A program made the position numbers and the translations under genes. Below are positions 7,383 through 9,447 of a stretch of DNA of 64,000 bases, one piece after another. The notes below the pieces were generated by a model. The model was given only the letters and a program-made list of their open reading frames with translations. It was not told the origin of the DNA and did not search any database. The stretch is from an uncultured Acidimicrobiales bacterium (lineage in GTDB: Bacteria; Actinomycetota; Acidimicrobiia; Acidimicrobiales; SHLQ01): contig CALLQB010000008.1 in NCBI GenBank assembly GCA_938015295.1, positions 62,001-126,000 of the forward strand. Direction: 5' to 3'. The number at the start of each line of letters is the position of its first letter. Position 1 is the stretch's first letter.

Positions 7383-8195
7383 TCAGCGAAGATCGAGCCA
7401 GCCGGTGCCGGTTCGCCCCTGAGCATCGATTCGGCACAACATCCGCCAACGCTGCGACGTTTGCCCGTCGACGCCGACCACTGGCACCGGTGCCACCGAC
7501 ATCACCACCACGTCGAATCGCTCCTCACCTGCGCTGAGCTGTAGGTGCTCGGCAGAAAGACGTTTCTCGAGCCCGCATGAGCGACCGACGAGTGGTTCAT
7601 CGTCATCCCACCAACCACTCAGCCACATGCCGCTTTCGAACCGGCGCTCGTCGGGTCCAGTCCATCGGCGTCTAGTCCCTCGGCCTTCGAAATCAAACTC
7701 TTCATGCCCAACAAGAATCTCGCCGTGGGCTGAGCAACCGAGCTCAAAGCCACCACCGGGCAGCGCCCACGCAGGGGTCCTCGTCTCCCATTCGAGATCA
7801 AAACCCAGCGGCGTGAGATCGCCCCGGAGCCCAGTGAAAACTTCGGCAGGATCATCAAGCCCTACCCCAAAGGCCTCGAGTCCAACGGTGAAATGCACCA
7901 GCGGCACTTGGGCGATCAAGTCGGTCCAGATGCCAGTCGAACGAACCTCAAGATTCGGCCACGCTGGCAGCGGCATCTCGTCATCAACCACAAGCACGAG
8001 CGGCCGGTCAGCACCGACCACCGAAGCCCAGAACCAGCCACGCCCGACAGCCGGGTACAGACCCATGACCACAAAGCCACCAAACGAACCGTCGGACGCG
8101 AAGTAATCGAGTTCGAAGACGTCGACCCACCCCCGCGGTGCGGTAACCGGCACCGCCTGTCGTCGATCGGAGGCTGCGGAAGGATCGAACGACAC
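7383..8195 (-). CDS. conserved-looking protein of unknown function, 270 aa
   Basis: I do not recognise this family. The 270-residue protein is rich in Trp, Gly and acidic residues (FVVMGLYPAVGRGWFWAS, SGMWLSGWWDDDEPLVG) and has no membrane segment or signal peptide, so it looks like a soluble beta-rich cytosolic protein. The start is GTG at 8195, because TATGCT lies 6 nt upstream on the minus strand. It is divergent from the SCP2-like gene with only 22 bp between the two start codons, and the -10 boxes of the two genes overlap. This suggests shared expression with the SCP2-like protein and, through it, with the Fpg gene. Confidence 0.75.
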   Translation of the reverse strand: MSFDPSAASDRRQAVPVTAPRGWVDVFELDYFASDGSFGGFVVMGLYPAVGRGWFWASVVGADRPLVLVVDDEMPLPAWPNLEVRSTGIWTDLIAQVPLVHFTVGLEAFGVGLDDPAEVFTGLRGDLTPLGFDLEWETRTPAWALPGGGFELGCSAHGEILVGHEEFDFEGRGTRRRWTGPDERRFESGMWLSGWWDDDEPLVGRSCGLEKRLSAEHLQLSAGEERFDVVVMSVAPVPVVGVDGQTSQRWRMLCRIDAQGRTGTGWLDLR

Positions 8196-8201
8196 CGATG
8201 C

Positions 8202-8211
8202 AGCATAAGCT
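8202..8211. promoter_or_regulatory. overlapping divergent -10 boxes of two leaderless genes
   Basis: The ten bases AGCATAAGCT hold TATGCT on the minus strand (8207-8202) and TAAGCT on the plus strand (8206-8211), sharing the TA at 8206-8207. Each box lies exactly 6 nt from a GTG start codon (8195 minus, 8218 plus). Confidence 0.6.
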
Positions 8212-8217
8212 GTGGTC

Positions 8218-8607
8218 GTGCGTTATCTCACCGACGAATGGCTCACCGCTGCTGCAACGGCCTACGAGGCTGCCGGATCGCCGCTGCCACGCGCCACCGA
8301 AATCGTGGTCCAACAGATCGTCACCGACACACCCGACGGCGAGGTCGCCTACACGATCGAACTATCAGGCCAATCGGTACGCCTCCACACCGGCAGGGTC
8401 GACAACCCCACCGTGAGCTTCACACAAAGTTGGCACACCGCCTGTGCCATCGCTCGAGGCGAACAGAGCGCCCAGGCAGCCTTTATGGACGGCTTGGTCA
8501 GAATCGGTGGAGCAACCCAAGTGTTAGTCGACAATCACGACCTTCTGGCCGACGTCGACGACCTGCTTGGCGAACTCCGCCAGGAAACGTCGTTCGAGGA
8601 CAGCTGA
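8218..8607 (+). CDS. SCP2 sterol-carrier-like domain protein
   Basis: This 129-residue protein resembles the small single-domain SCP2-like lipid-binding proteins of actinobacteria. The typical elements are a charged strand (VAYTIELSGQSVRLHTGRVDNPTVSFTQSW is this region, residues about 40-70), an ARGEQSAQAAFMDGLVRIGG stretch corresponding to the family's 'dG.l.i.Gd' end, and a short C-terminal helix. Such proteins bind lipids or acyl groups in the cytosol; the ligand here is unknown. GTG at 8218 is preferred over GTG at 8212 because only the former sits 6 nt after the TAAGCT box. The Fpg gene follows 3 bp after the stop, so the two are probably co-transcribed. Confidence 0.65.
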   Translation: MRYLTDEWLTAAATAYEAAGSPLPRATEIVVQQIVTDTPDGEVAYTIELSGQSVRLHTGRVDNPTVSFTQSWHTACAIARGEQSAQAAFMDGLVRIGGATQVLVDNHDLLADVDDLLGELRQETSFEDS

Positions 8608-8610
8608 GCA

Positions 8611-9447
8611 ATGCCAGAACTACCCGAGGTCAAAGCGCATGCCGAACGGCTCGCCGCAGGCTTCGGCGGACTGACACTTGCCAAATTTCGACCACTACAT
8701 TTCGCGGCGCTGAAGACCTTCGAGCCCGCCCCTGACGACGCAGTCGGCCAAAAGCTCACCGCGGTCACCACACGCGCAAAGCTGCTCATTCTTCACTTCG
8801 AGTCCACGGCCCACATCGTGCATCTCATGCAGGGAGGCCGGCTGAAACCCGACGAAAAACAGTCGGCCAAGGTTCGCAACGGTCTAGTGAGATGGGTATT
8901 CGACAATGGGCAGGCGCTGCTGCTCACCGAGGCGGGTAAGGACCGAAAGGCGGGAGTCTGGACAGTGAGTGGCGACCCTCTACTCGCAGAAAGGTTCGAG
9001 GGACTCGGCCCCGATGCCGATCAGGTGTCGATCGACGAGCTGACCAACCTCGTCGCAGCTGCTTCGATGCGCATTCATGGCTTTCTCCGGCAACAAACCC
9101 ACATCGCCGGGATCGGACGAAGACTGTCGAACGAAATTTGCCACCGCGCAAAGATTTCGCCATTCGCAAACGCATCAAAGCTCGACCGAGCCCAAGTCGT
9201 CGCTCTGCATGCGGCGATCAACGACGCTGTCGACGAGGGCCTGGCCTATGAACGAACTCGCGAAGACATGAGCTCGTCCAAAGACCGTCCGGGCAGCGTG
9301 CATCACCGGAAGGGCGACCCCTGCCCGGTGTGCGATGACGTGATCCGTGAGGTGTCGTACAACCGCTACGACGTTAACTACTGTGCTACCTGCCAAACCG
9401 GCGGGAAAGTGCTGGCCGACAACACCACCAGCAAGTTTCTCAAGTAG
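8611..9447 (+). CDS. DNA-formamidopyrimidine glycosylase / endonuclease VIII family protein
   Basis: This 278-residue base-excision-repair enzyme starts with MPELPEV, so the catalytic N-terminal Pro and the Glu next to it are present. The N-terminal beta-sandwich is followed by the helix-two-turn-helix region (FLRQQTHIAGIGRRLSNEI). A C-terminal zinc finger is seen as CPVCDDVIREVSY, then YCATCQTGGK, giving four Cys ligands. The family removes oxidised purines or pyrimidines from DNA and cuts the backbone. The sequence does not settle whether the enzyme is an Fpg (MutM) or a Nei-type glycosylase. It lies 3 bp behind the SCP2-like gene and converges on a secreted-protein gene 10 bp away. Confidence 0.9.
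   Translation: MPELPEVKAHAERLAAGFGGLTLAKFRPLHFAALKTFEPAPDDAVGQKLTAVTTRAKLLILHFESTAHIVHLMQGGRLKPDEKQSAKVRNGLVRWVFDNGQALLLTEAGKDRKAGVWTVSGDPLLAERFEGLGPDADQVSIDELTNLVAAASMRIHGFLRQQTHIAGIGRRLSNEICHRAKISPFANASKLDRAQVVALHAAINDAVDEGLAYERTREDMSSSKDRPGSVHHRKGDPCPVCDDVIREVSYNRYDVNYCATCQTGGKVLADNTTSKFLK

Follow-up and report, generated by a model that had tools for sequence, protein, structure and literature searches.

A 22-bp intergenic region of an uncultured Acidimicrobiales bacterium is a probable bidirectional promoter for two putatively leaderless genes

Introduction

In prokaryotic bidirectional promoters, two symmetric -10 elements, one on each strand, overlap (Warman et al. 2021, cited in PMC10268837; PMC12825309). 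Their divergent start sites are 7-25 bp apart. In E. coli, the common distances between the two transcription starts are 10, 18 and 23 bp, the 18-bp form being the most frequent (PMC12825309). The two directions of the promoters tested in that organism did not compete at basal activity, and competition appeared when one direction was strongly activated (PMC12825309). Leaderless genes have been studied separately. Those of actinobacteria carry a TANNNT motif about 12 bp upstream of an ATG or GTG start (PMC3160421, PMC3898074). The divergent prpD/Rv1129c pair of Mycobacterium tuberculosis is leaderless on both sides according to the mapped starts at 1254510 and 1254630 (PMC3898074).

Here, we describe a 22-bp region which joins these two subjects, bidirectional promoters and leaderless mRNAs. 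It resembles the known bidirectional promoters by its overlapping symmetric -10 elements and by a start distance of 23 bp, predicted here from the spacing of the boxes, and differs from them in that neither transcript is expected to have a leader, so that the promoter would fill the whole intergenic space. With the actinobacterial leaderless genes (PMC3160421, PMC3898074) it shares the motif, the spacing and the ATG/GTG start, but here two such promoters appear fused on one TA. The prpD/Rv1129c pair is likewise divergent and double-leaderless (mapped there, predicted here); its starts, however, are 120 bp apart and thus belong to two separate promoters. Bidirectional promoters and leaderless genes are each known, whereas no report of leaderless genes on a shared bidirectional promoter was found in the largely open-access literature searched.

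Results

The window is a 64-kb (64,000-nucleotide) stretch of DNA from a genome of 5.0 Mb in 140 contigs; among named genomes, its closest relatives are metagenome-assembled Acidimicrobiales. The features of the locus, with G002 and G003 denoting two congeneric genomes, are as follows.

7383..8195, minus strand: DUF7065+DUF7064 protein with an AttH/CrtC-like fold, from profile matches of its homologues and a structure model
8195, minus strand: predicted transcription start, first base of the GTG, from the box spacing
8196..8217: entire 22-bp control region between the two genes, of equal length in G002 and G003
8200..8212: invariant 13-bp block GCAGCATAAGCTG, identical in three species
8202..8207, minus strand: TATGCT, the -10 box of the DUF7065/DUF7064 gene, ending 6 nt ahead of GTG 8195 and kept in G002 and G003
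8206..8207: shared TA step, -12T/-11A in either orientation, with a putative role in strand opening
8206..8211, plus strand: TAAGCT, the -10 box of the SCP2-like gene, ending 6 nt ahead of GTG 8218 and kept in G002 and G003
8218, plus strand: predicted transcription start, first base of the GTG, from the box spacing, at a distance of 23 bp from the minus start
8218..8607, plus strand: SCP2-like lipid-carrier domain protein (Pfam PF02036, E 1.7e-4, above the curated cut-off), with relatives in the order
8611..9447, plus strand: Fpg/Nei-like DNA glycosylase, a probable operon partner of the SCP2-like gene, the gene order being kept in relatives

Direct reading of the sequence places exactly 22 bp (CGATGCAGCATAAGCTGTGGTC) between the GTG at 8195 on the minus strand (CAC at 8193-8195) and the GTG at 8218-8220 on the plus strand. 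The 10-bp element AGCATAAGCT at 8202-8211 contains TAAGCT on the plus strand (8206-8211) and TATGCT on the minus strand (8207-8202); the two boxes have the TA at 8206-8207 in common and each ends 6 nt before its GTG. A first-pass annotation had described this gap, the boxes, the shared TA and the 6-nt spacings, and its geometry is exact. The overlap of -10 elements on opposite strands, typical of bidirectional promoters, is kept in G002 and G003. Leaderless genes typically have a TANNNT whose last base lies 6-7 nt ahead of the start codon; here the distance is 6 nt for both genes. As A and T each make up about 20% of the bases, the chance cost of the four fixed letters (A, T, A and T at set places) is about 0.0016 per given pair. 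Neither direction yielded a -35 element, and a sigma-70 promoter scan requiring both hexamers found no promoter; mycobacterial promoters likewise have no conserved -35 element (PMC3898074).

The plus-strand open reading frame has a second in-frame GTG at 8212, absent from the first-pass annotation. It was rejected as the start in favor of GTG 8218, because G002 and G003 have no start codon at the position of 8212 and keep the GTG at that of 8218.

The spacing between box and start was analyzed for 696 called genes in 840 kb of sampled stretches from this genome. TANNNT ended 6 nt before the start codon in 51 cases. Distances of 7 and 8 nt accounted for 41 and 15 cases, respectively, and the background was 2.7 per position. 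The commonest promoter-to-start spacing is thus 6-7 nt, and predicted leaderless promoters are a main mode in this genome. The window itself holds 17 genes with a leaderless box and three divergent pairs that have such a box on both sides, the gaps being 22, 95 and 70 bp. The two other pairs, 18199 (minus)/18295 (plus) and 51082 (minus)/51153 (plus), have separate boxes, with 95 and 70 bp between the starts.

Conservation was followed in a congeneric set of four genomes: G000 (the window genome), G001, G002 and G003. The unit CAC-N6-AGCATAAGCT-N6-GTG is retained in two of the three congeners, G002 and G003, where the 22 bp read CGAGGCAGCATAAGCTGGCTGG and TCGGGCAGCATAAGCTGAACCT, respectively. 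The pattern CAYN6AGCATAAGCTN6RTG has a single match in each of G000, G002 and G003 and none elsewhere in the four genomes. In the alignment of the three sequences, 13 adjacent columns (8200-8212) are invariant, extending one or two bases past the hexamers, while none of the nine others is. The probability of such a run is about 1.3e-8, taking as a baseline the fourfold sites of three neighboring genes, at which the window is 35-48% identical to G002 and G003 and 25% of the sites are invariant in the triple. By contrast, 71 bp separate the two starts in G001, where the two genes are preceded by separate TACACT boxes, at 6 nt from the ATG of the minus gene and at 7 nt from the GTG. The adjacent pair was found in 14 further relatives, and the boxes are separate wherever both were found (gaps of 36-91 bp). 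At this gene pair, the form with a shared TA has been seen in just three species. The shared unit may be the original state of the genus, later split in G001, or may have been compacted on the branch leading to the other three; the node that places G001 in the genus tree has supports of 52 and 0.43.

An alignment with related genomes had been proposed as a check, and loss of one box beside an intact pair as the result that would speak against the arrangement. Both boxes are in place in G002 and G003 and G001 has one per gene, so that neither gene lacks a box in any congener. This comparative evidence supports the earlier prediction that both genes are leaderless and that their boxes overlap on a shared TA.

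The same data bear on the reading in which only the SCP2-Fpg direction has a real promoter, the minus match being incidental to the symmetry of the -10 motif and the minus gene being expressed from elsewhere. Such motifs are partly symmetric by nature, and published bidirectional promoters often yield a non-coding RNA on one side (PMC10268837). However, the minus box, its 6-nt spacing and its GTG are kept in G002 and G003 despite a changed spacer, and the minus gene of G001 has a TACACT of its own exactly 6 nt before its ATG. Because of this conservation and the one box per gene in G001, we consider a promoter for one direction unlikely.

Slightly less probable still is that the near-palindrome CAGCATAAGCTG is the operator of a regulator, and that the conservation reflects protein binding instead of two -10 boxes. 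Ten of its 12 bases are symmetric, and the invariance does run past the hexamers. Yet the boxes stand at leaderless spacing on both sides and neither neighboring gene encodes a regulator. Furthermore, CAGCWTAWGCTG occurs once each in G000, G002 and G003, only at this site, and is absent from G001, G006 and G008. Since no further copy of the palindrome was found elsewhere in the first three genomes, the operator of a regulon is improbable; a regulator with this single target is possible.

The mirror layout recurs elsewhere. In 198 genomes of the order, the pattern CAYN6ANNNTANNNTN6RTG (6/6) gave 467 sites versus 268 for the reversed pattern. The off-phase 5/7 control, with the box shifted by one base, gave 201 and 178 sites in its two orientations (mean 189.5), a 2.5-fold excess of the 6/6 form. 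The 7/7 version, expected because 7 nt is the other common box-to-start spacing, gave 360 sites in the same genomes. Of 43 sampled 6/6 sites, 22 had open reading frames of at least 80 codons on both sides, as did 4 of the 29 off-phase ones (Fisher p 0.001). With an excess of about 1.4 mirror sites in each genome, the class is a rare one. In 109 genomes of Actinomycetota from outside the order, 218 sites were counted versus 145 for the reversed pattern. A chance arrangement devoid of function can be set aside in practice: TANNNT is loose and mirror sites do arise by chance, about half of the sampled matches having no long open reading frames on both sides, but this unit is conserved in two further species (p about 1.3e-8) and both flanking frames are conserved genes.

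Several of the mirror sites clearly lie between genuine gene pairs, among them SDR/aldo-keto reductase (G002 and G003) and HIT/CDP-alcohol phosphatidyltransferase. The site of the former pair is, besides the one at 8196-8217, a second mirror promoter kept in two congeners; it has a CAGACTAAGTTC core and lies between the short-chain dehydrogenase and aldo-keto reductase genes (L066, 1209-1236; L068, 1501-1528). Other look-alike boxes (ATCGTAGGCT in L063 and L127; a box in L065 similar to that of L066/L068) were rejected as orthologous sites because their translations show different gene pairs, leaving only L066/L068 as orthologous. Separately, the off-phase 5/7 sites are rarer than their own reversed control (201/178 versus 349/326 in the 198 genomes), which suggests avoidance or a composition effect. 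The double-leaderless 18-bp class (gap of 17 bp) was not enriched in 98 genomes, its forward counts being equal to or below the reversed control; this differs from E. coli, where the 18-bp form is the commonest. A histogram of the distances separating called divergent genes had no maximum at 22, which reflects the noise of the simple start caller and the rarity of such pairs; pairing that takes the boxes into account is needed in place of the plain histogram.

About 2.3 Mb of sampled DNA contained 64 double-leaderless divergent pairs, the smallest gap being 22 bp. Four pairs have gaps of 22-24 bp and all four share the TA, while none falls at 0-21 or 25-30 bp. For these reasons 22 bp looks like a practical floor for the double-leaderless gap, in agreement with the earlier proposal that the region is close to the smallest possible, and it suggests how small the control region of two genes can become in these bacteria.

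Discussion

Taken together, the 22 bp are probably a single bidirectional promoter of the sigma-70 type, leaderless on both sides and belonging to the 23-bp class, since the predicted starts at 8195 and 8218 lie 23 bp apart. RNA polymerase would bind it in either orientation. The TA at 8206-8207 would supply -12T and -11A for both, and -7T would be T8211 for the plus direction and the complement of A8202 for the minus direction. Transcription would start 7 nt downstream of each box, at the G of each GTG, and because both predicted mRNAs are leaderless, a Shine-Dalgarno site would be dispensable. As the TA would serve as -12T/-11A in both orientations, we infer that strand opening begins at the same base pairs whichever way the polymerase is bound. 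Two polymerases would be unable to occupy the promoter simultaneously. These separate roles of the key bases lead to direction-specific predictions for single changes, so that both the choice of orientation and the competition could be tested with one 22-bp cassette.

The first-pass annotation had further deduced that expression of the two genes would be exclusive or tightly balanced. Such a necessity is not supported: basal firing of the promoters tested in E. coli is too low for competition, which arises only when one direction is activated (PMC12825309). Exclusive or balanced expression is a possibility and not a consequence of the layout. More likely than a strict switch is a compact means of co-expressing, at a modest level, two proteins that may both be lipid-related. 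More tentatively, and with somewhat less than even confidence, Actinomycetota may possess a distinct, selected class of 22-24 bp promoters in which one TA sets two transcription starts that coincide with the start codons of both genes. Promoter, transcription starts and translation starts would then be an indivisible unit, and competition for it would couple the genes.

The divergent pair with the Fpg gene downstream is present in many relatives across the order. DUF7065 is matched by 31 of 34 homologues of the minus-strand protein and DUF7064 by 29 of 34, while the sole match of the window copy (7383-8195) is DUF7064, below the cut-off. Its predicted structure is confident (pLDDT 95), and the fold neighbors of the model are AttH (2ich, Z 21) and a 25-phosphosteroid lyase (Z 20), at about 14% identity; the modeled fold is AttH/CrtC-like. 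This likeness, beside a sterol-carrier-like gene, points to a possible steroid or lipid role for the pair. One of the divergent proteins has an SCP2 domain and the fold of the other has a steroid lyase among its nearest solved relatives; speculatively, both may handle lipids, and co-expression from one promoter would suit such a pair. Finally, the best NCBIfam score of the Fpg/Nei-like glycosylase (8611-9447) is 103 bits versus the 212 needed, and as it falls far under every curated cut-off, this protein may represent a separate subfamily.
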